Positions 3,192 through 15,410 of a DNA stretch of 15,410 nt are shown piece by piece. The notes under the pieces were generated by a model that was given only the letters and a program-made list of their open reading frames with translations, searched no databases and was not told the origin of the DNA. Position numbers and translations under genes: made by a program. Position 1 is the stretch's first letter; the number at the start of each line of letters is the position of its first letter. The stretch is from an uncultured Mycoplasma sp. (GTDB taxonomy: Bacteria; Bacillota_I; Bacilli_A; RF39; UBA660), in the NCBI GenBank assembly GCA_947388575.1, contig CANDSI010000006.1, positions 1 to 15,410 on the forward strand. Direction: 5' to 3'.

Positions 3192-3947
3192 ATGTATCAA
3201 AAGTTAGCTACTATATTAGATACATATTCTAGTAATCAAAGATTATTAGATAAAAACGCATTAGAAGACATAGCAAGCATAAGCATTCAAGGAAATAAAA
3301 AACTTGCACCCTACATAAAAGATATCATAATAATGCCTAAAGGAAAACTACGCACTTTAGCTACATATCACTATGAAGATAAAATAATTAAAGTATATTT
3401 AGATTATATTTACCAAGTATTAAGTAAAATATTTGGGGAAAACAATTATTATAGAAAAAATGAAGAAATCATGCAAACTTTATTACATGAAGTATGTCAT
3501 GGTGACCAAAATTCAATCGCTAATAGTGATAGAGAAGATTTAGAATGTAATATAATTAGAGCTTGTATACTTTCGTTAAAAGATGAAACATACTATTTAA
3601 AAAATAATTTAATATGCCCAACAGAGCGAATGGCCGAAATAGATTCATTATTACAAATGATGTCAATAGGAGTTATAAGTCATAACAATCATGAATTAGA
3701 GTATTTTAGAAAAATAAACAGAGAAATGCATTTAGGTTATTCTAAAAATTTAAAAAGTTCTCCTACTGAAAAGTACATACAAGAAGCATTTATTGATTCA
3801 TATTTTAAATTTTCCAGAAGAGCCTTAGAAGAAATTAAAAAATTATACTCATTAGAACAAAGATTAAGACTGGGATTGCAAGTTACAAGAAGCGAATTTA
3901 ATAAAGAATTAGAACCATTTTTAACATTAGAAAGACTAAGAAAATAA
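3192..3947 (+). CDS. Putative cytosolic zinc metalloprotease-like protein (HExxH), family not recognised
   Basis: The 251-residue protein has no signal peptide or membrane segment. It contains HEVCH at residues 99-103, within LLHEVCHGDQ, a typical zincin helix. About 45 residues later comes ERMAEID (145-151), whose E149 or E145 could be the third zinc ligand, recalling the E-x-x-A pattern of ImmA/IrrE-like and other gluzincins. The rest is largely helical, with charged residues and a C-terminal Lys/Arg-rich helix. I do not recognise the full-length family, so peptidase activity is inferred from the motif alone. The ATG at 3192 is chosen over the ATG at 3183 because AGAAGGGG (3176-3182) overlaps the latter and is spaced 9 nt from the former. 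It follows the femX operon but has its own promoter. The neighbour at 3955 converges on it. Confidence 0.7.
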   Translation: MYQKLATILDTYSSNQRLLDKNALEDIASISIQGNKKLAPYIKDIIIMPKGKLRTLATYHYEDKIIKVYLDYIYQVLSKIFGENNYYRKNEEIMQTLLHEVCHGDQNSIANSDREDLECNIIRACILSLKDETYYLKNNLICPTERMAEIDSLLQMMSIGVISHNNHELEYFRKINREMHLGYSKNLKSSPTEKYIQEAFIDSYFKFSRRALEEIKKLYSLEQRLRLGLQVTRSEFNKELEPFLTLERLRK

Positions 3948-3958
3948 TCATTTTTTAG
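3936..3958. terminator. Weak bidirectional terminator between convergent genes
   Basis: CTAA-g-AAAAT and ATTTT-TTAG form an all-AT stem with one bulged G and an AATC loop. It covers the stop codons of both the plus-strand HExxH gene and the minus-strand nuclease gene. T-rich sequence follows the 3' arm on the plus strand only for a short stretch. It is weak, but it is the only structure in the 7-nt gap. Confidence 0.3.
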
Positions 3959-4860
3959 TTTATTACTTCATAAGTAACAGGAATTAAATTATCACTTTTA
4001 ACAAAATTAGCTACATAACCATCTTGTTCTTTACTTATGATAATTCCTAATGTTTTAGAGTGATGTGATTCTTTTAAGTTATCATCTACTAATTTCATAT
4101 ACATTTCTGTTTGAGCTTTATCTTCTACTTTAAGTTTTCTAAGCTTTAATTCAACTACAACAAAACAATTTGATTTATAATTAAATAATAAGATATCTAT
4201 ATAATAGTTATTTATTTTTACCTGATTTCCCACGTAAGTATAACCCTTACCAAGCTGTGTTAATATAAAAGCAAGCTCAGAAATAATAGCTAATTCTAAA
4301 TCTTTTTCATTTTTTATTATTTTATTTTTCTCTACTTTAATTATAATAGGATTTTTCATACCACTAGTTATATCATATTTTTCTCTAGTGGTAATTAATT
4401 CAATATGTTCAGGTTTATTTATGAGTCTTTCATATGAGCCAGATTTTATTTCTTCAATTAATTGTCTTTTAGATAAATTTCTTTCTATACATAAATTTAA
4501 ATAATAATTTCTTTTGTTTATTTTTTTAATTGGTAAAACCTCTCTTATATGACTCCATAATAATTTGCCACCCATTGGGTGACCATTTATAAACATTAAA
4601 TAAAAGGCTCTATAATACTTCATATTAGTAACATTATATCCTTTACCATAATTTTTAGTAAATTCTTGACTCCATTTCTTAATTAACTCATTGCCATATT
4701 TTGCTCTATTGCTTCCACCTTGAGCTTCAACTAAAAGTCTACCTATCTCCCAATAATTTTTTAATGTATCATAATTCTCTTCAAATAATCTTCTTCTTTT
4801 ATTTATTTCATTTCTTTTTATATAACTTTCAATCTCAATATAATATTGTTGTTCTTGCAT
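3955..4860 (-). CDS. DUF1016/YhcG-type PD-(D/E)XK nuclease domain protein
   Basis: The 301-residue protein has two parts. Residues ~20-145 match the DUF1016 N-terminal helical domain (YWEIGRLLVEAQGG, AKYGNELIKKWSQEF, LLWSHIREVL). Residues ~185-300 match the PD-(D/E)XK domain, with YIDILLFN (D222), VVVELKL (E238, K240) and QTEMYMKLVDD (Q250, Y254). Family members are predicted DNA nucleases, found both near restriction loci and as solitary genes; the biological role is not settled. No restriction partner lies next to it here, and it stands alone on the minus strand between two plus-strand genes. The start is supported by AGAAAGGA 8 nt upstream on the minus strand and by an extended -10 (TGTTATTAT, 4906-4914). 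All expected catalytic residues are present, so it is probably active. Confidence 0.85.
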   Translation of the reverse strand: MQEQQYYIEIESYIKRNEINKRRRLFEENYDTLKNYWEIGRLLVEAQGGSNRAKYGNELIKKWSQEFTKNYGKGYNVTNMKYYRAFYLMFINGHPMGGKLLWSHIREVLPIKKINKRNYYLNLCIERNLSKRQLIEEIKSGSYERLINKPEHIELITTREKYDITSGMKNPIIIKVEKNKIIKNEKDLELAIISELAFILTQLGKGYTYVGNQVKINNYYIDILLFNYKSNCFVVVELKLRKLKVEDKAQTEMYMKLVDDNLKESHHSKTLGIIISKEQDGYVANFVKSDNLIPVTYEVIN

Positions 4861-4905
4861 ATAAAAATTCCTTTCTAAAGATAAAGCAATATTAACATTC
4901 AGAGC

Positions 4906-4914
4906 ATAATAACA
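4906..4914 (-). promoter_or_regulatory. Extended -10 of the DUF1016 gene
   Basis: On the minus strand the sequence reads TGTTATTAT, an extended -10 with no good -35. It would start transcription near 4899, leaving a leader of about 39 nt. Confidence 0.35.
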
Positions 4915-4954
4915 TAAGCAAAATAAGTATTTAGGGTAAGATTTGACTTATCTA

Positions 4955-5001
4955 CGACATTTCTCAACAAATATCGACATAAAACGCTAAGAAAATAGAC
5001 A
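4955..5001. repeat. Helically phased CGACAT-type repeats between divergent genes
   Basis: CGACAT occurs at 4955-4960 and 4975-4980, exactly 20 bp apart, with the related CAACAA midway at 4965-4970 and a looser AGACA at 4997-5001. The 10-bp phase puts the copies on one DNA face, as for paired direct-repeat sites of some response regulators. They lie about 65-90 bp upstream of a TATAAT (5031-5036) that lacks a usable -35. An activator site for the lysozyme gene is an inference. Confidence 0.35.
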
Positions 5002-6574: not shown

Positions 6575-6595
6575 TAGATAATGATAATCTATATT
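6575..6595. promoter_or_regulatory. Fur-box-like operator in the 5' leader of the surface protein gene
   Basis: GATAATGATAATCTATATT (6577-6595) matches the classical 19-bp Fur consensus at 16 of 19 positions. It also contains the inverted repeat TAGAT(6575-6579)/ATCTA(6587-6591). It lies just downstream of the predicted transcription start, where a bound repressor would block transcription. Caution: a 15-nt stretch identical to its first part recurs inside coding DNA near 9509, so chance in an AT-rich genome is possible. Confidence 0.4.
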
Positions 6596-6613
6596 AGTGA
6601 GAGGAAGAGTGTA

Positions 6614-9600
6614 ATGGATATTAATAAGATTTTGAGTTTTAGTAAAATTCTAAAATCGAGAATTTTTTATGTAATGTGTGGGGTAATATTTTTAATAGGA
6701 ATACTTATATATTTTAGCCATCCTACAAGGAGTTATGCCCTACCAGAGACAGTATTAATTGATAGAGGTAATGTCTCTGAACAAGTTTTATACTTATCAG
6801 ATATAACTTATAATAAAGCACAGGTAGGTTGGGGAACAGTATCTCTTGATAAAACCCAATCAAATACACCATTAATATTAAAGTTAAATGGTTATTCCAC
6901 AACGTTTAAAAAAGGAATATGGGCTCATGCTACTTCAACTGTAGAATATGATATTAGTGAATATAAAGATTATGCATATTTTACGACATATTATGGTTTA
7001 AATACTACTGCTGGTAATACTGGTAATGGTGTCAAATTTTATATTTATACTTCTGTAGATGGTAAAGAATGGACATTACAAACTGAAGAAAATCCTGATG
7101 CTAAAAAAGGTGTAAGCAATGCTTCTTATGCTAAGATAGACATTAGAGGAGTAAATTATATAAGATTATATGCTCATGATAATGGTTCTAATGCTTCAGA
7201 CCATGCTGTATGGGGAGATAGTAAATTAATCAAAGAAGGTTATAGTGATGATATAACTATACCAGTAAGCGAATTTGATAAAGCAATAAAAGCTAATTAT
7301 ACATCAGGAGCAATAGAAGATAATTTAAAACTTACATTATTACAAAGAAACTTTATTGATAGAGTAGGACAATTTCAATTAAGAGCTTTTGTAGATGCAG
7401 ACCCTAAAAATATGGAAACATTAAAATGGTTCATATATAATGAAGAGGCATTAAGATTGTGGACAGTCGGTGGAAATCCTAATGGTACATATGCTAATTC
7501 ATTACAAGTACTTAGTAATTTATATCATGCGCACAAAGAAGACTTAGAGAATGAAGGGGTAACAGCAAATGGCACTAAATATAAAGATTTATATTTAAGA
7601 ATGATGTTATCTTTATCATTAACTCATTCTTCAAACGTATGCTTATGGATTAACAATAGTCAATGTTCCAATGCAGTAACTCGATATGAAATATATAAAG
7701 ATATGCATTTAAACAATAAATTAATGTCAAATTCAATGTTTGAGAGTTACACTGTGGAAGAAATGCGTTGGTTAATGCATAACAACATAGATGACGAAGA
7801 AATCAAATGGTTAAGAGATTACTCAGCTAAAAGATATCCAAATACAACAGATAGATTTAATCCATATAAATATATAACTTATACCTTCGGATATAGTTAT
7901 TACAGACCACAATATTATAGTCAAGAAAACTATGCTAAATGGGACCAAAAATACAATTTATCAGATTACAATATAACATATAAATCAGGCAATCCAAAAT
8001 TATGGATAGTATTTGAAGAAGGAGCAGTATGTGGAGGACTTTCGAAAACAGCAGCCAATTTATATGGTGTATGGGGAGTACCAGCAAGCGTTGTAGGTCA
8101 ACCTGCTCATGCAGCTTATATATATTATTATAATGTTGGTGGCAAAGGAGCATGGCAATTAGCATACAATGTCGCAGAAACTGCATGGGCTAATACCCAA
8201 GGATATTCAAGAATGCCTAATGACTGGGGAAATCTCAGTAGTGGAATTGTAACAAATACAGGTACAATAAAATCAGCTTCATATTTCTTCTTATCACAAG
8301 AAGCGCAAAATGAATATGACAAATATGAAAAAGCAGAATTAATAATGATGCTTGAAAGAGTATATAAAGATGATAGCAAGAAGTTAGAAAAAATATATCG
8401 TGATGCTTTAAAAGAAGAAATAATAAACTGGGATGCATGGTTAGGGTTAGTAAATTTATATATAAAAGATGGAACTAAAACTGAGGAAGAGTTAATCAGT
8501 TTAGCGGAAGAAATAAGTGCAGTTTATACATATAATCCGCTTCCTATGTATGATTTAACTCGTAGAATCGGACTTAAGATTACATCACCAGAGTATAAAA
8601 GTAAATTAATGCTTTTACAAAATAAAACTTTACGACAAGCTACAAAAGCAACTGGCGCAAATACATTACAATATAAAGAAGTACCAGTTGTAGCACAAGC
8701 TTTATTAGGTGAGATAAATTCTGATATAGCATCATTCTCATTTAGCGGATCATCAGCTAATAAAATTACATTATCAAAACAATTACAAAGTTCACAAGTT
8801 AATTGGAGTTATAGTTTAGATGGAGGTAATACATGGAAAGATGTATATGAACACTCAGTAGAACTAACTCCAGAGGAAGTAGCAAGTATAACAGTAAATA
8901 ATGATATTAAAGTTCATATTTCAGGTTTACCAATGACTGATGCTAATATTTATACCATAGATATTACTAAAAGGTCATTCCCAACTGGTTTAATTTCTAT
9001 CAATGATGAAGAAGATAGAATGATTGGTGTAACTGATGAAATGGAATGGACGCTAAATCCAGCAGATGGATGGAATTCATTTGCTAATACAAATCCAATA
9101 TTTAGTGGCAATAAAAGAGTTTATGTAAGAGTAATTGCCAAAGGAACACAAATTGCAAGTGACCCTGTATATTACACATTTAAAGAAAACAACACTAATG
9201 ATGAAAAATGGTATATTCAATCTAAATATTTAAGCATTCATGAAGTAAATGCTACTCAAACAGGAAAAGTAGAAAACATGTTAGACGGTAATGTAAATAC
9301 TTCTTGGCAATCTAAACATGGAATAATGCCAGCATATGTTACAATAAAATTAGACCAACCAAGATACATCTCAGGTCTAGATTATATTCCAGATAAAAAT
9401 GCTAAGTATATTACTTTTGTTCCATATGGTCGTGCTAGAAATGTTAAAATTTATGTTAGTATGGATAATCAAAATTGGGAACTAGCTGCCACAAAGAATA
9501 ATTTAGGAGATAATGATAATCTAAAACATATAGAATTCCCAGTCGCTAAAAAAGCTTTATATGTAAAATTCGAATGCCAAAGTGCTTATGACAGTGAGAT

Positions 9601-11473
9601 TATTGCTTTAGCTGTATCGGTTATAAAACTATATGAAAACGTTTTAGTAAATGATACACCAAGAGCAGATGTTAACTATAACATTGTAAATCCAACTAAC
9701 AAAGATGTAGTCGCTGAATTAGTAAATCCAATTAGACCAATAACCGTAACTAATAATGATGGTAAAATGACTCATACATTTACGGAAAATGGCGAGTTTA
9801 CATTTGAATATGTTGACGATAATGGTAATAAAGGAAGTACAACAGCAAAAGTAACATGGATAGATAAAACTGCACCAAAATTAGATGTAACATTTAATAC
9901 AACAACTATTACTAATGAAGAAGTTGTAGCAACACTGAAATTTGATAAAAATGTAACAATATTATCAAAAGATGTTCAAATAGCAACCAATCCTGTAGAC
10001 AATAGTAAGACAATAACTTTCTTAGAAAATGATACAATTGAATTAGAGTTTATGGATGATTTAGGAAATATAGGTAAGAAAACTATTTCTGTTAATTGGA
10101 TAGATAAAACAGCCCCTACAGCTGAAGTAGAATATAGTACAATTCATTTAACAGATAAAGCAGTTACAGCCAAATTAAAACCAAGTGAACCAATAACAAT
10201 TACTAATAATGGTGGCAGTGACGAATATGTATTTACTGACAATGGTGAATTTACTTTCGAATTTGTTGATAGAGCAGGTAATACTGGTTCGATAAAAGCG
10301 ATAGTAACATGGATAGCAAGAGTACCACATTACGAATTAAAATATTCAACAACTAATCCAACCAGAGATAATGTTGAAGTAACATTAACCCTTGAAGATG
10401 GATTTAGAATAGTAAACAATGATGCTAGTAATAAATATACATTTACCGAAAATGGCACATTTGGCTTCCAATATTTAGATAGTCGAGGTAATGTTGGTCA
10501 AATTGAAGCAACTGTCACATGGATAGATAGAGTTGCTCCTACTGCCGAATTAAAATACGACAAGACAAAAGACAAAGTAACAGTCACTGTAATAAATCCA
10601 AGTGAAGAAATAACATTTAAAGAAGGTAATGGCGTTTATGAATTTACTGAAAATGGAACATATGAAATAATATTCTATGACAAAGTAGGAAATGAAGGAA
10701 AAGTTACAGCTATTATCGATACAATTGGTATCGATGATATCAAACCAGATGTCCCTGAAAAACCTGAAGAACCAGATAAGCCTGATACTCCAGACAATCC
10801 TAATGAATCAGAAAAACCAGACGACAAACCTAATACTGATAAACCAAATGAAGGAAATAAACCTGAAAACCCTGATACACCAAATATTCCAAATAAACCA
10901 AATGAACCTAATAAGCCAGGAAACTCTGGTAATAATAACAAGCCAAGTGATAAACCTGATATAGAAAAACCAGATGATAGTGAATATAAAAATTATACAA
11001 CAGATAAAGTTGATGTTAAAATTCCATCAAATGCAATTAAAGAAGATGGTAAACTAAGTGCTAATGGTTTTGAATTAGATGAAAACTTAAAATATAGTTT
11101 TGGTGATTTAAGTGAATATTATGATATCTATTTAGAAAATGACAAATATGAAAGAATTAATGTTAATGCAACAAGTCCAATCAAAATAAATATAAAAATA
11201 GATAATAATAAAGACTTTATTGGTGTATATGAAATAACAGAAGATAATATAATAAAACCTGTTGATTATGTAAAAGATGGCGAAAACATTGAAATATCAG
11301 CTAAAAACTTAGGTAGGTTTGTAGTATCATACAAAAAATTAAGTACAAGCAATCCTATACATAACTCTAACAAAGTAACTAGAAAAAATAATTATATTAT
11401 ATGGTTAATGACAGCTATAATGACAATACTTATAGGACTATCAGTATATGTATTCAAAAAGAAAAATAAATAA
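6614..11473 (+). CDS. Large multidomain surface protein: NPCBM, transglutaminase-like core, F5/8 type C, five Ig-like repeats
   Basis: The 1619-residue protein is predicted to be exported and membrane- or wall-anchored. In order: signal sequence (hydrophobic ~17-35, possible cleavage after SYA); NPCBM-like carbohydrate-binding domain (~60-205); helical region (~210-450); transglutaminase/cysteine-protease-like core with AVCGG (C473), GVPASVVGQPAHAAY (H499) and WQLAYN (N519, where Asp is usual); TPR-like helices (~565-690); beta domains with SLDGGNTW (~700-860); F5/8 type C-like domain (~865-1010, LDGNVNTSWQS); five Ig-like repeats of ~60-70 residues (~1016-1370), most ending WIDxxAP; Pro/Asn/Lys/Glu linker (~1375-1455); a C-terminal domain; and a membrane helix plus KKKNK tail. 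No LPXTG is present; NPIHN near 1580 could be a degenerate sortase-B-like signal. The ATG at 6614 is preferred over 6581 because AGAGGAAG lies before it. A glycan-binding adhesin or processing enzyme is likely; the substrate is unknown. Confidence 0.82.
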   Translation: MDINKILSFSKILKSRIFYVMCGVIFLIGILIYFSHPTRSYALPETVLIDRGNVSEQVLYLSDITYNKAQVGWGTVSLDKTQSNTPLILKLNGYSTTFKKGIWAHATSTVEYDISEYKDYAYFTTYYGLNTTAGNTGNGVKFYIYTSVDGKEWTLQTEENPDAKKGVSNASYAKIDIRGVNYIRLYAHDNGSNASDHAVWGDSKLIKEGYSDDITIPVSEFDKAIKANYTSGAIEDNLKLTLLQRNFIDRVGQFQLRAFVDADPKNMETLKWFIYNEEALRLWTVGGNPNGTYANSLQVLSNLYHAHKEDLENEGVTANGTKYKDLYLRMMLSLSLTHSSNVCLWINNSQCSNAVTRYEIYKDMHLNNKLMSNSMFESYTVEEMRWLMHNNIDDEEIKWLRDYSAKRYPNTTDRFNPYKYITYTFGYSYYRPQYYSQENYAKWDQKYNLSDYNITYKSGNPKLWIVFEEGAVCGGLSKTAANLYGVWGVPASVVGQPAHAAYIYYYNVGGKGAWQLAYNVAETAWANTQGYSRMPNDWGNLSSGIVTNTGTIKSASYFFLSQEAQNEYDKYEKAELIMMLERVYKDDSKKLEKIYRDALKEEIINWDAWLGLVNLYIKDGTKTEEELISLAEEISAVYTYNPLPMYDLTRRIGLKITSPEYKSKLMLLQNKTLRQATKATGANTLQYKEVPVVAQALLGEINSDIASFSFSGSSANKITLSKQLQSSQVNWSYSLDGGNTWKDVYEHSVELTPEEVASITVNNDIKVHISGLPMTDANIYTIDITKRSFPTGLISINDEEDRMIGVTDEMEWTLNPADGWNSFANTNPIFSGNKRVYVRVIAKGTQIASDPVYYTFKENNTNDEKWYIQSKYLSIHEVNATQTGKVENMLDGNVNTSWQSKHGIMPAYVTIKLDQPRYISGLDYIPDKNAKYITFVPYGRARNVKIYVSMDNQNWELAATKNNLGDNDNLKHIEFPVAKKALYVKFECQSAYDSEIIALAVSVIKLYENVLVNDTPRADVNYNIVNPTNKDVVAELVNPIRPITVTNNDGKMTHTFTENGEFTFEYVDDNGNKGSTTAKVTWIDKTAPKLDVTFNTTTITNEEVVATLKFDKNVTILSKDVQIATNPVDNSKTITFLENDTIELEFMDDLGNIGKKTISVNWIDKTAPTAEVEYSTIHLTDKAVTAKLKPSEPITITNNGGSDEYVFTDNGEFTFEFVDRAGNTGSIKAIVTWIARVPHYELKYSTTNPTRDNVEVTLTLEDGFRIVNNDASNKYTFTENGTFGFQYLDSRGNVGQIEATVTWIDRVAPTAELKYDKTKDKVTVTVINPSEEITFKEGNGVYEFTENGTYEIIFYDKVGNEGKVTAIIDTIGIDDIKPDVPEKPEEPDKPDTPDNPNESEKPDDKPNTDKPNEGNKPENPDTPNIPNKPNEPNKPGNSGNNNKPSDKPDIEKPDDSEYKNYTTDKVDVKIPSNAIKEDGKLSANGFELDENLKYSFGDLSEYYDIYLENDKYERINVNATSPIKINIKIDNNKDFIGVYEITEDNIIKPVDYVKDGENIEISAKNLGRFVVSYKKLSTSNPIHNSNKVTRKNNYIIWLMTAIMTILIGLSVYVFKKKNK
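9661..10722 (+). repeat. Five tandem Ig-like repeats within the surface protein gene
   Basis: Units run at about 9661-9880, 9881-10120, 10121-10330, 10331-10543 and 10544-10722. Shared marks are a T-FTENGEFTFE-type strand (repeats 1, 3, 4 and 5) and a D-x-x-GN-x-G turn. Units 1, 2 and 4 close with WIDKTAP or WIDRVAP, unit 3 with WIARVPH, and unit 5 lacks the closing motif. They probably form an extended stalk. Sequence divergence between units argues for old duplication, not recent expansion. Confidence 0.75.
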
Positions 11474-11480
11474 AAAAAGA

Positions 11481-11518
11481 AAGTAGACAAGTTTAAATGC
11501 TAGTCTACTCTTTTTTTT
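11481..11518 (+). terminator. Rho-independent terminator of the surface protein gene
   Basis: AGTAGAC (11482-11488) pairs with GTCTACT (11503-11509), with a 14-nt loop and a run of eight T after it. It lies 8 nt past the stop codon. Confidence 0.8.
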
Positions 11519-11551
11519 ATAAAAATACTTTGTTTAATGAAATTTAGAAAT

Positions 11552-11577
11552 AAAAAGGATTGAAATGTAAATCAATC
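11552..11577 (-). terminator. Terminator of the uS11-like gene
   Basis: GATTGA (11558-11563) and TCAATC (11572-11577) form a 6-bp stem. On the minus strand it is followed by CCTTTTTATTTC. It lies just past the stop codon of the minus-strand gene. Confidence 0.5.
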
Positions 11578-11581
11578 AATA

Positions 11582-11938
11582 TTATTTATGTGTTCTAATT
11601 CTTTTATTAGGAACGCAGCCATTATGAGGAACAGGGGTTTTATCTTTTATCCATCTTACATTAATGCCATTTGATTCTAAGAAATATAAATCTACTAAGC
11701 CAGTACTAAGATGACCTTTAACCTCTACTTCAATAGTATCTATTCCATATATTTTAGCACATTCACAAACCATTGTTGCAATATCTCTCTTCATTTTTTC
11801 TTTTTCTTCTTTCCTAGCTTCAGTTCCAACAGAAGTAAACTCTCCGTGGGTATAACAAAGAAGTTGTTTATCTTTAACTAGTATAGCTATAAATGATGTA
11901 AAACCACTTGTTATTCTTAAAATTGGTAAACTATTCAT
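11582..11938 (-). CDS. Stand-alone divergent paralogue of ribosomal protein uS11
   Basis: The 118-residue protein aligns with bacterial S11 (129 residues in E. coli). The C-terminal half is clear: YGIDTIEVEVKG (64-75) matches YGIKNLEVMVKG, and IKDKTPVPHNGCVPNKR (97-113) matches ITDVTPIPHNGCRPPKK. Residues 7-60 fit the S11 strand and helix pattern more loosely. The N-terminal basic tail of S11 is absent, and the conserved GFRGSRKST rRNA-contact loop reads TSVGTEARKEE. True rpsK lies in the rpsM-rpoA operon; here the gene stands alone, with its own promoter, a good AAAGGAGA site 6-7 nt before the ATG and its own terminator. It is therefore probably a paralogue with an altered role, not the main S11. 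Candidate roles are an alternative ribosome part, an assembly factor or an RNA-binding regulator; none is shown by the sequence. Confidence 0.72.
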   Translation of the reverse strand: MNSLPILRITSGFTSFIAILVKDKQLLCYTHGEFTSVGTEARKEEKEKMKRDIATMVCECAKIYGIDTIEVEVKGHLSTGLVDLYFLESNGINVRWIKDKTPVPHNGCVPNKRIRTHK

Positions 11939-11959
11939 ATTTTTCTCCTTTAATATATT

Positions 11960-11987
11960 ATTCTACACTTTATTACATAATAGTCAA
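11960..11987 (-). promoter_or_regulatory. Promoter of the uS11-like gene
   Basis: On the minus strand TTGACT (11982-11987), a 16-nt spacer and TAGAAT (11960-11965). Transcription would start near 11953, about 15 nt before the ATG, just ahead of AAAGGAGA. Confidence 0.6.
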
Positions 11988-12111
11988 GTGTAAAACTCTA
12001 AAAATATTATTTCAGAATAGCATTTATTTATATGAAGAGTAACAAACAAAAACAATAACACAAACTATATAATAAATTATAATATATAGTAAATACTAAA
12101 TAAAAAAGAAA

Positions 12112-12140
12112 TATACATTAATACCATTCTATGATAAAAT
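12112..12140 (+). promoter_or_regulatory. Promoter upstream of the uvrB fragment
   Basis: TATACA (12112-12117), a 17-nt spacer and TAAAAT (12135-12140), with TGa making an extended -10. The leader to the start codon would be about 108-120 nt, unusually long for this window. Confidence 0.5.
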
Positions 12141-12254
12141 ATGGTTTAGAAAAAGTTATTTAATATTAAATTATTAATTTAAGACTAGTACTTATAAAAA
12201 TAAATATTTTTTATAATGAAATAGTATAAATAAAATTATAAATAATTAACAGAA

Positions 12255-12617
12255 ATGAGTGATATAATGTTTAAGTTAGTATCAAGATTTGAACCATCGG
12301 GAGACCAACCAGAAGCAATTAAAGAACTTGTAGAAGGAATTAAAGAAGGCAAGAAAGAGCAAGTTTTACTAGGAGCAACAGGTACAGGTAAGACTTTTAC
12401 TATTGCTAATGTAATTAAAGAAGTTAATAAACCAACACTAGTTTTAGCACATAATAAAACTCTAGCAGGACAACTTTATTCAGAATTAAAGGAATTCTTC
12501 CCTGATAATCACGTTGAGTATTTTGTTAGTTATTATGATTACTCCCAAAAAAGTGACTTATTTAGGCTTAATTTGTGTGATTTAATTTATTTCAAAAATC
12601 TAAATAAACCTAGATAA
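12255..12617 (+). pseudogene. uvrB: 5' fragment of uvrB, truncated after about 96 codons
   Basis: UvrB is the damage-recognition helicase-like subunit of nucleotide excision repair, normally about 650-670 residues. Residues 5-96 match UvrB perfectly in form: [20 protein letters not shown], Walker A GATGTGKT (40-47), [15 protein letters not shown] and [11 protein letters not shown]. After YYDY (codon ends at 12542) the family continues YQPEAYVP, but here the sequence becomes SQKSDLF... and stops at 12617. There is no frameshift before the break, so truncation is abrupt and probably recent. The remaining 24 residues come from foreign DNA. The start may be 12255 (MSDIMFK, no clear ribosome site) or 12267 (MFK, with GAGTGAT close before it). 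A working protein is not expected from this piece. Confidence 0.85.
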
Positions 12618-12630
12618 AATCAAGTAACAG

Positions 12631-12692
12631 ACATATAATATGTGGCCGATTGTAGTCCAAATTCGTACAATACTTTAATAAACATATAATAT
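12631..12692. repeat. Paired 11-bp direct repeats flanking an inverted repeat at the element end
   Basis: ACATATAATAT occurs at 12631-12641 and again at 12682-12692, 51 bp apart. Between them ATTGTA (12649-12654) and TACAAT (12666-12671) form an inverted repeat with an 11-nt centre. Such layouts occur at recombinase arm sites and at operators, but AT-rich repeats also arise by chance. Confidence 0.35.
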
Positions 12693-12696
12693 AATA

Positions 12697-12725
12697 TTGA
12701 TATGATAATAGTCTTATAATATAAT
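12697..12725 (+). promoter_or_regulatory. Promoter of the first element gene
   Basis: TTGATA (12697-12702), a 17-nt spacer and perfect TATAAT (12720-12725). Transcription would start near 12732, about 16 nt before the ATG and just ahead of AAAGGG (12736-12740 region). Confidence 0.65.
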
Positions 12726-12747
12726 AAGCAAATGAAAGGGAATTAAA

Positions 12748-13398
12748 ATGAAATATTTAACAATATTAAAGATAAATAGTAAATATAGAGTAGATGCTTT
12801 ATCAACGATGTTTTGTTGTTCTGAATCAAAAGAAAATGATTATCTTGTTAAAGGCGTATTAAAAGTAAAGAATCCAAAAGGACAACTAAGAGAAGATGAA
12901 GAAATAGTAGTAATAGAAAATCCAAATAATCTAAGCAAAAAAGATTTTCTTAAATTATTTAATATAGCTGATTCAGAAAACATCCAAATGATAGTTATTC
13001 CTGATTATATATTAGAATGTGGTGAATTAATTCCATTTAATGATTATAAAAATAATTATAAAGAACAAGTGAAAATAAAAAGCAAACAAGCTATGATTAA
13101 AAGTAAAGCTAGAAAAGATATTGAAAACAATAAAAAATTAACTGAAAAGCAGATAAATGAACTATGTGAAATATATCATTGTTCAAAAGATGATAGTATT
13201 GATATATTATCCTATTTAGAATATTGCTTATTTTACAAAACCAACGGAAAGCTCAATGATTGCTTTAGTCAGATTAGTAATATAAGATATAGAGATTTTG
13301 ATGAGAAAGAAATTAAAATAAAAGAAAAAGATAGCACAAACTTAAATAGAAGGATAGGAATATCAAAAGACATAGCCAAAAAGTACTATTGCCGTTAA
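12748..13398 (+). CDS. Hypothetical protein of the element, unknown function
   Basis: The 216-residue protein begins with ATG 7 nt after AAAGGG. I do not recognise the family. It has no signal peptide or membrane segment. The N-terminal ~100 residues look alpha/beta (strands such as EEIVVIEN and IQMIVIPDYILECGE), residues ~105-135 form a Lys/Arg-rich helix (KIKSKQAMIKSKARKDIE), and residues ~135-165 read as paired helices with IYHCSKDDSIDILSYLEYC. The C-terminus is basic. It has its own promoter and terminator, so it is a single-gene unit ahead of parA. It contains seven Cys, none in a clear zinc-finger spacing. A DNA-binding or element-specific regulatory role is possible but not shown. Confidence 0.6.
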   Translation: MKYLTILKINSKYRVDALSTMFCCSESKENDYLVKGVLKVKNPKGQLREDEEIVVIENPNNLSKKDFLKLFNIADSENIQMIVIPDYILECGELIPFNDYKNNYKEQVKIKSKQAMIKSKARKDIENNKKLTEKQINELCEIYHCSKDDSIDILSYLEYCLFYKTNGKLNDCFSQISNIRYRDFDEKEIKIKEKDSTNLNRRIGISKDIAKKYYCR

Positions 13399-13400
13399 AA

Positions 13401-13426
13401 ATAAACTGATTAAATTCAGTTTTTTT
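13401..13426 (+). terminator. Rho-independent terminator before parA
   Basis: AAACTGA (13403-13409) pairs with TCAGTTT (13416-13422) around a 6-nt loop, followed by more T up to 13426. It separates the unknown gene from parA. Confidence 0.75.
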
Positions 13427-13428
13427 AA

Positions 13429-13437
13429 TGCTATTAT
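13429..13437 (+). promoter_or_regulatory. Extended -10 upstream of parA
   Basis: TGCTATTAT forms an extended -10 with no clear -35, because the terminator hairpin occupies that space. Transcription would start near 13444, directly in the palindrome at 13443. Confidence 0.45.
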
Positions 13438-13442
13438 ACATA

Positions 13443-13460
13443 GCCATTTTAATTAATGGC
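13443..13460. promoter_or_regulatory. Palindrome between -10 and ribosome site of parA (candidate operator)
   Basis: GCCATT (13443-13448) and AATGGC (13455-13460) form 6-bp arms around TTAATT. It covers the expected transcription start and lies 14 nt before AGGAGA. Partition operons are often self-regulated by ParA or ParB binding at such a place, so an operator (or a parS-like site) is a reasonable inference. Confidence 0.4.
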
Positions 13461-13487
13461 AAGAAATGTTAGAGAGGAGATGAAAAA

Positions 13488-14312
13488 TTGAAAGATTGCG
13501 AAGTAATAGCAGTTGCAAACCAAAAAGGTGGTGTAGGAAAAACGACAACGGTCTTTAATTTAGGTGTAGCGCTTGCTAAAGAAGGTAAAAGAGTATTGCT
13601 AATTGATGGTGATCCACAAGGAAATCTAACAACGTATATGGGATTTGATAGTCCTGATGATTTAAAAGTTACTCTAAGTACAATCATGCTGAATGAAATT
13701 AATAATGATGATAGCAATATTAAAGAGTCAGTACTACATCATAAGGAAAATATAGATTTAATTCCTTCAGATTTAGAATTGTCATCATTAGAGTTCTCAT
13801 TAGTAAATGCAATGTGTCGTGAAAGTACAATGAAGAAATCATTATGTCATTTAAAAAGAGAATATGATTATATTCTAATTGATTGTCAACCATCGCTTGG
13901 AATACTAACAATAAATGCCTTAGCTTTTGCTAATAGAGTCATTATACCAACTCAAGGACATTATTTTTCAGCTAAAGGTATGACAGAATTGATTAAAACG
14001 ATTAAAAGAATAAATAGGAAAATTAATTCGGATTTAATTATTGACGGCGTGTTATTTACTATGATAGATAATAGAACTAATTTATCAAAGGAATTAAAAT
14101 CTGATTTAATAACTAATTATGGGAGTAAAATTCACTTTTATAATTCACAAATACCAATGGCAATAAAAACAGCAGAATCAACAGCTTATGCCAAAAGCAT
14201 ATTTGAATATGACAAAAATAGCAAAGTAGCAATAGCTTATACTTCATTAGCAAAGGAGATATTAGAAGATGAGAGAAGAAGAACAAAAAAAGAAACTGCC
14301 ATCGTTAGATGA
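13488..14312 (+). CDS. parA: ParA-family partition ATPase, TTG start
   Basis: The 274-residue protein is a Walker-type ATPase that, with ParB, moves or positions replicated DNA. Visible motifs are the deviant Walker A QKGGVGKTT (residues ~10-18), A' motif LLIDGDPQGN (~37-46) and Walker B YILIDCQPSLG (~125-135, where most ParA have DCPP). There is no N-terminal helix-turn-helix extension, so it is the short ParA/Soj type. The start is TTG at 13488, spaced 7 nt from AGGAGA (13475-13480); the ATG at 13480 leads straight to a stop. The 3' end overlaps parB by 44 nt. In an integrated element this pair probably helps the excised circular form persist. The assignment to the ATPase family is firm. 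Confidence 0.92.
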   Translation: MKDCEVIAVANQKGGVGKTTTVFNLGVALAKEGKRVLLIDGDPQGNLTTYMGFDSPDDLKVTLSTIMLNEINNDDSNIKESVLHHKENIDLIPSDLELSSLEFSLVNAMCRESTMKKSLCHLKREYDYILIDCQPSLGILTINALAFANRVIIPTQGHYFSAKGMTELIKTIKRINRKINSDLIIDGVLFTMIDNRTNLSKELKSDLITNYGSKIHFYNSQIPMAIKTAESTAYAKSIFEYDKNSKVAIAYTSLAKEILEDERRRTKKETAIVR

Positions 14313-15225
14313 ATTATTTTCTACTGAGGAAGAAAGGCAAGAAAATAACATAGAGAAAGTTGTAGACATTCCTATTTCAAAAATACAAGACTTTAAAAAT
14401 CATCCATTTAAAGTTGAAGAAAATGAAGAACTGATTAGTATGTCTGAAAGCATAGCAAAGTATGGCGTATTAGAACCAGCAGTAGTTAGGCCTTTAAATG
14501 ATGGAACTTATGAAATGATATCAGGACATAGAAGAAAAAAAGCAAGTACTATGGTAGGTAAAGAAACTATTAGATGTATTGTAAAAGAATTAAGCGATGA
14601 TGAAGCTACAATAATAATGGTTGATAGTAATATTCAACGTGAGAAAGTGTTACCTTCAGAAAAAGCCTTTGCATATAAAATGAGATTAGAAGCAGAAAAA
14701 CACCAAGGTAGAAAGATTGAAATATCTTTGTGCCAAGTTGGCACGAAGTTAAGAAGTGATGCTATTCTAGCTCAACAATTAAATGAAAGTGCAAGAAATA
14801 TTCATAGATACATTAGATTAACAAACCTTATACCTGAAATCTTAGAAATGGTGGATAATGGAATAATTGCACTAACACCAGCAGTGGATATCTCTTATTT
14901 AGAAATAGATGAGCAAGCAGTATTACTAGATGTAATGGGATATAATGGTTGTACACCCAGTGTATCACAAGCTAAGCAAATAAAATATTTAAGTGAAAAA
15001 GGAGAATTTGAAGAATCAAAAGTAAAAAAAATATTAAACCAAGCTAAACCTAATCAAATTGAAAGGATACACCTAGATAAAAAGAAAATTAGCCAAGTAC
15101 TGCCAAAGTTAAAGGATGACAAAGTAGAAGATTATATTTACCAAGCTATTATTTTTTACAATAAACATTTAGAACATCAAAAATTAATAGATAAAAAAGT
15201 TAAATTATCCGAACAAGTTAGATAA
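14269..15225 (+). CDS. parB: ParB-family partition protein (element type)
   Basis: The 318-residue protein would bind parS-like DNA and partner with ParA. An N-terminal acidic/Lys segment (SLDELFSTEEERQ, ~11-23) precedes the ParB/Spo0J nuclease-like CTPase domain (~32-125): IPISKIQDFKNHPFKV, YGVLEPAVVRP, then the nucleotide-binding SGHRRKKA (~84-91), and DSNIQREKVLPSEKAFAYKM. A helix-turn-helix region follows (~155-185: AILAQQLNESARNIHRYIRLTNLIP). The C-terminal third is helical and Lys-rich. AAGGAG (14253-14258) lies 10 nt before the ATG inside parA, so translation is probably coupled. The SGHRR spelling and extended N-terminus fit the conjugative-element branch better than chromosomal Spo0J, which is my judgement from memory. 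Confidence 0.9.
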   Translation: MREEEQKKKLPSLDELFSTEEERQENNIEKVVDIPISKIQDFKNHPFKVEENEELISMSESIAKYGVLEPAVVRPLNDGTYEMISGHRRKKASTMVGKETIRCIVKELSDDEATIIMVDSNIQREKVLPSEKAFAYKMRLEAEKHQGRKIEISLCQVGTKLRSDAILAQQLNESARNIHRYIRLTNLIPEILEMVDNGIIALTPAVDISYLEIDEQAVLLDVMGYNGCTPSVSQAKQIKYLSEKGEFEESKVKKILNQAKPNQIERIHLDKKKISQVLPKLKDDKVEDYIYQAIIFYNKHLEHQKLIDKKVKLSEQVR

Positions 15226-15245
15226 TGGGAGTATTATTTCCACAT

Positions 15246-15298
15246 CCCTCCTATAACCTCCCTATAATATATATACTAACTGAAAATACTAACTGAAA
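15246..15298 (+). repeat. Tandem 13-bp repeat and paired CCTCC repeats after parB
   Basis: ATACTAACTGAAA occurs twice without a gap (15273-15285 and 15286-15298). Just before it are two 11-nt units, CCCTCCTATAA (15246-15256) and CCTCCCTATAA (15257-15267). The first pair could be a regulator or replication/partition site. The CCTCC strings could base-pair with the AGGAG ribosome site of the next gene at 15351. Confidence 0.45.
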
Positions 15299-15311
15299 AA
15301 ATATTATAGAA

Positions 15312-15340
15312 TTGCAATATAAAATAAAATATATTACACT
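15312..15340 (+). promoter_or_regulatory. Candidate promoter of the last, partial gene
   Basis: TTGCAA (15312-15317), a 17-nt spacer and TACACT (15335-15340). Transcription would start near 15347, about 17 nt before the ATG. Confidence 0.4.
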
Positions 15341-15363
15341 ACGTACCAAAAGGAGAGATTTTA

Positions 15364-15410
15364 ATGAAATTAAAATTAATTTTGATATTTGTAAGCAGTT
15401 TAATAGTTTT
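15364..15410 (+). CDS. 5' end of a probable exported protein (partial)
   Basis: ATG at 15364 follows AAAGGAGAG (15349-15357) at good spacing. The 15 complete codons read as Lys-containing start plus a hydrophobic core (KLKLILIFVSSLIV), the beginning of a signal peptide or membrane helix. The rest lies outside the window, so the product cannot be named. Its place after parB in the element suggests a small exported or membrane protein. Confidence 0.6.
   Translation, partial: MKLKLILIFVSSLIV

Follow-up and report, generated by a model that had tools for sequence, protein, structure and literature searches.

The stretch of DNA analysed here (the window; 15,410 nucleotides of contig CANDSI010000006.1 from an uncultured Mycoplasma sp.) carries a strongly diverged copy of rpsK, the gene encoding ribosomal protein uS11. 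The explanation that we prefer, and to which we give about an even chance, is that of a real, selected and horizontally mobile uS11 paralogue, whose product would dock on the 16S platform as an alternative or competing S11. Judging from the sequences compared below, the protein may give rise to ribosomes of a second type or have a role in ribosome assembly. The gene and the signals around it are as follows:

11582..11938, minus strand: divergent uS11 paralogue (family A), 118 aa, ATG start, from the ORF call and profile matches
11945..11951, minus strand: ribosome binding site AAAGGAG, 6 bases 5' of the ATG, read from the sequence
11960..11987, minus strand: promoter TTGACT-16-TAGAAT with 10/12 consensus matches, from the sequence and its conservation in genome G482
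11558..11577, minus strand: hairpin GATTGA/TCAATC and, behind it, CTTTTTATTT, immediately after the stop codon, a possible terminator (folding z -3.3)
11482..11509, no strand: two-way hairpin flanked by T-rich tails, located between the convergent genes for a 1630-aa protein and the S11-like protein (z -3.0 and -2.7)
11570..12004, minus strand: putative transferred unit of promoter, gene and 12 bp downstream, the sole blastn match to the G482 locus

Assignment to the S11 family

The coordinates given in the initial annotation are exact: the open reading frame lies on the minus strand, starts with ATG and encodes 118 aa. The initial annotation had assigned its product to S11. The protein matches the profile PF00411 (Ribosomal_S11) with 34.2 bits, above the cut-off of 25.1 (E 3.6e-8). 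Against the NCBIfam profile uS11_bact (TIGR03632) it scores 42.4 bits and does not reach the equivalog cut-off of 154.5, and is therefore a homologue but not an ordinary S11. A search of the sequences of solved structures returned 66 matches at E<=0.001, and all 60 among the matches listed are S11. The PF00411 score and these matches rule out chance similarity; the assignment thus stands, and the profile search pointed to no different family. Identity to ordinary S11 of the same genus is about 30% (29-32%) across most of the length.

The protein is predicted to have the S11 fold. Its AlphaFold model (pLDDT 80, pTM 0.67) consists of five strands and two helices, and helix 1 (22 residues, 43-64) is aligned with the loop and the first helix of S11. 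In a Foldseek search the best 50 of 1556 rows were ribosome or small-subunit entries, the names being those of entries and not of chains. The top chains are chains of the ribosomal small subunit, with TM scores normalised by query of 0.54-0.65, and several of them (7nhn_l, 8rd8_KU, 3j9m_AI, 5aj3_K, 9h90_k and 6v39_k) are S11 according to the naming in the sequence search. Since 22 of the 37 rows of the AlphaFold input alignment are ordinary S11, the model is pulled towards the S11 fold, and the result is support and no independent proof.

Residues lost and residues spared

We aligned 149 ordinary S11 sequences (from the genus, the class and databases) with nine sequences of family A (window, G023, G482 and the database members P0001-P0006) and eight of a sister family B described below. 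In this alignment 47 columns are >=90% identical in ordinary S11, and a residue was counted as kept if present in at least half of the rows of a family. The boundary between the C-terminal part and the rest was set at residue 105 of the G012 rpsK product, which was our choice. Family A keeps 12 of the 13 near-invariant columns in the C-terminal part and 8 of the 34 elsewhere, counting the start methionine, and family B keeps 11/13 and 13/34, respectively. The S11-type C-terminal block (TPVPHNGC) noticed in the initial annotation is retained as part of a wider spared tip, I-x-D-x-T-P-x-P-H-N-G-C-x-P-x-K-x-x-R. The proline preceding the histidine is replaced by threonine in 3/9 family A rows, while His-Asn-Gly is present in all nine, and H105 and N106 of the window protein are invariant in families A and B. 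H105-N106-G107 align with the His118-Asn119(isoAsp)-Gly site of E. coli uS11. There, His118 is reported to stack on A718 of 16S rRNA, Asn119 is an isoaspartate, and the tip packs on a three-helix junction of the 16S rRNA on the E-site side of the platform (PMC7550191).

The remainder of the protein has changed strongly. As the initial annotation had claimed, the basic N-terminal tail is missing and a loop of the GFRGSRKST type has been replaced; both are borne out by the alignment, in which 12 basic N-tail residues (AYNRRKRKVKKN of G012 rpsK) are gone and the GYKGSKKKTP loop of ordinary S11 is replaced by SVGTEARKEEKEKMKRD. Family A also lacks the conserved lysines of the loop, R91 and R96 (G012 rpsK numbering) and the GPGxGRE residues. 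The net charge of the window protein is +4, compared to +12 for G012 rpsK, and its C-terminal end is altered and longer than that of the genus's rpsK.

Selection on the protein

The three copies for which DNA was seen (window, G023 and G482) remain open through all 118 codons. Pairwise dN/dS values are 0.52 for window-G023, 0.34 for window-G482 and 0.43 for G023-G482, with Fisher p values for synonymous against non-synonymous changes of 0.15, 0.004 and 0.035, respectively. The ratio is thus significantly below 1 in the latter two pairs but not in window-G023; the three pairs depend on one another, and the counts behind them are low. For window-G023, 13.5 non-synonymous changes were counted, compared to 38 expected without constraint (Poisson p 2.5e-6); for this expectation, the synonymous changes of six neighbouring genes were pooled into one rate. 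By these measures, the protein is under constraint. The dN/dS of the six neighbours (window-G023, leaving out the gene for a 254-aa protein) is 0.05-0.12, about four to eleven times lower, and the S11-like gene is therefore less constrained than its neighbours.

Genomic context and expression signals

The genes adjoining the S11-like gene encode the 1630-aa surface protein and uvrB, in agreement with its earlier description as free-standing outside ribosomal operons. Gene names in this region (murT, gatD, femX, uvrB, galE) were assigned from sequence. The S11-like gene has the same neighbourhood in G023, a second genome of the genus: murT, gatD, FemX-like genes, a GH25-LysM gene, the 1630-aa surface protein, the S11-like gene and uvrB. 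In G482, from another genus, the S11-like gene lies between a galE-like gene and a transposase fragment. At none of the three loci is it located between rpsM and rpoA, the position of ordinary uS11. In G012, about 170 bp separate uvrB from a gene resembling that for the 1630-aa protein, and an S11-like gene is absent there, but the alignment of the left flank is not good enough to locate the break.

The initial annotation had proposed an own promoter. The counterpart of this promoter in G482 reads TTGACA-16-TAGAAT, and the claim is backed by the conservation of the stretch in this other genus. The region contains 6 promoter-like sites, compared to 5.4 expected from shuffled sequences (sd 2.3), that is, no excess. 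G023 is without the promoter stretch common to the window and G482 (window 11939-12266 compared): the match to the window ends at 11965 and is found again from 12063, so that the -35 side is other DNA. A terminator had been proposed as well, and this claim stands in part: two hairpins fold behind the gene, but a simple terminator scan finds none there. The hairpin at 11558..11577 is absent in G482. Scans of the window for Rfam families and tRNAs gave no match.

Several observations concern the surroundings. The 108 bp behind the S11-like gene (11474-11581, corresponding to L053:10382-10489) are identical in the window and G023, and the two-way hairpin falls inside them; in the same comparison, the synonymous sites of the neighbouring genes are about 14% different. 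The surface-type protein (6581-11473) has NPCBM and F5/8 type C domains, a proline-rich stretch and a hydrophobic C-terminus. Upstream of the S11-like gene, an additional gene for a HAD hydrolase is present in G023 (L053:11045-11809). The window contains a gene for a YhcG-type PDDEXK nuclease (DUF1016; 3955-4860, minus strand, within the region 3944-4987), and none is present at the otherwise syntenic G023 locus.

In the region 12267-15410 (L151, L152), an element whose ParA and ParB are identical to those of G001, the bin nearest the window, interrupts uvrB at about codon 95. In G001 this element occupies about 33 kb between a 5' fragment of uvrB and the full gene. It carries genes for a conjugative coupling protein, a TraG-type ATPase, and CHAP and ArdC-type proteins, and two phage-integrase-family proteins are encoded immediately before the full uvrB. 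It has the appearance of an integrative conjugative element supplying an extra 5' end for uvrB; 5' fragments of uvrB are also present in G013, G018 and G009. That the S11-like gene is cargo of this element is disfavoured, since in G023 it occupies the same position and the uvrB beside it is uninterrupted.

Distribution

Family A has nine known members. A protein search of 5.8 billion sequences returned six homologues at E<=0.001 (P0001-P0006), which are 78-97% identical and comprise 118 aa in five cases and 124 aa in one; these database sequences are open by construction. An orthologue was found in one of 36 genomes of the genus (G023, 89% identical) and in one of 386 genomes of the family (G482); the two sets overlap by five genomes, and their members are mostly 0.8-1.6 Mb in size.

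We considered widespread S11 paralogy in the class and rejected it. PF00411 has a match in 385 of 394 class genomes, and the one genome with two among the matches listed (G074) owes the second to a 24-aa frame. Three family genomes with two A3 matches (G446, G610 and G648) were rechecked with PF00411. G648 has a single PF00411 match. The second S11 match of G446 is a 27-aa frame, and that of G610 is a full-length, ordinary-looking S11 with 138.6 bits in a bin with 5% contamination. A scan of further genome contigs returned four ordinary S11 loci and nothing else.

Phage or plasmid cargo was rejected too, since the phage, plasmid and viral-contig scans contain no close copy. Four scans of viral contigs gave no copy of family A or B. 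Six phage and 16 plasmid records match with 43.5-48.1% identity over 44-53% of the query, and 15/16 of these plasmid records are annotated as rpsK.

A sister family

Two further genomes of the genus (G033 and G004) encode a second divergent S11 of 112 aa with about 66 bits to PF00411, which we call family B:

L051:2605-2943 and L052:77-415, strand not given: family B loci, downstream of rpsU and a yqeY-like gene

Between the yqeY-like gene and the family B gene, G033 has two more small genes. Database members form six clusters (P0007-P0012) with 51-100% identity. Family B shares with the window protein the loss of the N-tail, the spared tip, a similar KRIR end and the genus. It is only 28-33% identical to the window protein, is near rpsU in both loci seen, has the loop lysine in 8/8 rows and keeps more of GPGxGR than family A.

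In the phylogenetic tree family A forms one group (support 100/99) and family B another (96/95). The two are together on one side of a branch with support 88/82, but long branches make their joint origin unsure. In AU tests, an origin from the genus's own rpsK had p values of 0.055 and 0.067 for family A or B, and of 0.086 for both plus rpsK; such an origin of either family is, on these alignments, disfavoured, though the tests do not reject it. The G004 bin contains, besides its family B gene, the start of an ordinary rpsK behind rpsM on another contig, where it is cut by the contig end. This is the sole direct sign of a diverged and an ordinary S11 in one bin.

Transfer between genera

The window and the 19.9-kb G482 locus share a single blastn match of 439 columns with 89.3% identity. 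It comprises the gene with 66 bp upstream, including the promoter, and 12 bp downstream. The dS of the S11-like gene is 0.235 for window-G482 and 0.167 for G023-G482, compared to 0.80-1.06 (four pairs) for the ordinary rpsK of the same two genera. The confinement of homology to 439 columns and a dS far below that of rpsK are best explained by a recent transfer between genera, in which this one gene moved together with its promoter, about 440 bp in all. A search for repeats at the ends of the transferred unit gave nothing convincing. The epimerase gene next to the G482 copy has no close partner in three genomes of G482's genus that were searched for an empty-site comparison. A caution applies to the transfer: the G482 copy is located on a 250-kb contig of a bin and may be misbinned.

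Alternative explanations

Four other explanations have to be weighed. That the window protein is the sole S11 of its organism would fit the lack of an ordinary S11 in G001, G023 and G482, but G001 and G023 are likewise without S13, RpoA and SecY, and G482 without S13 and SecY. SecY and RpoA are essential, and their absence indicates that the DNA of the ribosomal supercluster is missing from these bins, so that their lack of rpsK says nothing. (G482 is oddly without SecY and S13 for a bin of about 20 contigs rated 92% complete, given that 242/251 good family genomes have some S11 match.) Ordinary rpsK is present in 29/36 bins of the genus, full length in 26 and cut in three (G004, G011 and G035). 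We therefore regard a sole S11 as very improbable. A decaying rpsK duplicate on its way to loss, open by chance, would account for the high dN/dS relative to the neighbours and for the patchy presence in single genus and family genomes. Against it stand three open DNA copies, invariant C-terminal residues, between-genus ratios below 1 and the retention of the gene after transfer with its promoter. Decay is disfavoured by this constraint and by the transfer, and we give it little credence.

The two remaining alternatives accept a functional protein. The tip could have been reused off the ribosome, on a fold resembling the 16S junction in mRNA or precursor rRNA, making the protein a regulator or an assembly chaperone but never a ribosome subunit. 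A spared tip on a protein that has lost its N-tail and most of the conserved residues of its body, the reduced net charge and an own promoter apart from ribosomal operons would all agree with this. However, what has been retained are the residues that match the 16S junction proper, and we consider this explanation unlikely. Alternatively, a mobile S11 variant could alter the drug pocket at the 30S E site or shield it from a toxin or phage factor. To our knowledge, neither a drug nor a toxin has been described for these hosts. Such a function would suit a one-gene unit transferred with its promoter and a changed, extended C-terminal end, and changes at the uS11 C-terminus have been reported to confer resistance to cryptopleurine and emetine in eukaryotes (PMC4906347); bacterial uS11 is not named as a resistance site in the relevant part of the same source (PMC4906347). 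No resistance gene was noticed next to the S11-like gene, just the YhcG-type nuclease gene 6.7 kb off and the conjugative element. We regard protection or target replacement as improbable.

Discussion

We prefer an alternative or competing S11 on the platform. According to this proposal, the spared tip (Lys-Asp-x-Thr-Pro-x-x-His-Asn-Gly...Lys-x-x-Arg) would still dock next to the E site, on the platform of the 30S subunit. As the protein has fewer contacts otherwise, its binding would be weaker or later than that of ordinary uS11, and with R91, R96 and the basic loop lost, docking may also fail. Two roles would follow from this. Some of the 30S subunits could carry the protein as their alternative S11 in the platform, with an effect on initiation or on the behaviour of the E site, or the protein could hold the place for a limited time while subunits are assembled or the cell is under stress. 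bS21 is reported to join the platform after uS11 (PMC7550191), and together with the location of family B near rpsU this would fit a platform role.

The window protein resembles bacterial uS11 (rpsK; PF00411, TIGR03632) in its predicted fold and in the tip KDxTPxPHNGC..K..R, with the Asn-Gly at which isoaspartate is formed in E. coli uS11. It differs in its low identity of about 30%, the missing N-tail, the loss of the loop and of GPGxGRE, its location outside the alpha operon and a score under the equivalog cut-off. A literature search returned no diverged bacterial S11 paralogue among the matches listed, with most subscription journals and preprints outside its scope; to that extent, the remark in the initial annotation that such a protein had not been seen described holds.

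As a highly diverged ribosomal-protein paralogue, it is comparable to the zinc-independent alternative ribosomal proteins (bL31, bL33, bL36, uS14 and others), which are kept beside an ordinary copy. A 2012 survey of 995 bacterial genomes reports that all highly diverged paralogues carry zinc-motif forms (PMC3353972). The S11-like protein, in contrast, has no conserved zinc motif. Its cysteines are located at positions 28, 58, 60 and 108; Cys60 is replaced by tyrosine in 5/9 family A rows and Cys28 by phenylalanine in P0004, leaving no conserved cysteine set in the family. The 23 rpsK rows of the genus listed have one cysteine each, in PHNGC, and neither S11 copy therefore carries the zinc motif expected in one of the two under a zinc switch.

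bS21 is small and not universal, unlike uS11, which is a universal core protein, and here the gene for its paralogue has probably also moved between genera. The likeness of the S11-like protein to bS21-2 of Francisella is that of a platform protein paralogue. Francisella has three bS21 homologues, loss of bS21-2 is described to change the proteome, and the homologues have been proposed to tune which mRNAs get translated (PMC9578407). Phages are reported to carry bS21, bL12 and other ribosomal protein genes outside their operon and under purifying selection (PMC6375957). The S11-like gene resembles these in both respects but differs in having no phage copy in our scans; in its main text, that study does not mention S11 at all (PMC6375957).

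More tentatively, and with distinctly less confidence than in the paralogue as such, the gene may represent a transferable second version of a universally conserved core 30S protein. As a cassette with its promoter it would spread between genera and give rise, in the recipient, to a second class of ribosomes with an altered platform and E site, and would be the first zinc-free case for a core protein. It is commonly assumed that core ribosomal proteins tolerate duplication poorly, since each has to fit into a single complex. A uS11 that has diverged under selection and been transferred would offer a natural way to test if bacteria whose genomes measure about 1 Mb make more than one kind of ribosome. 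It would also test the role of the isoaspartyl tip of uS11 alone, as this is the part best kept by both paralogue families.
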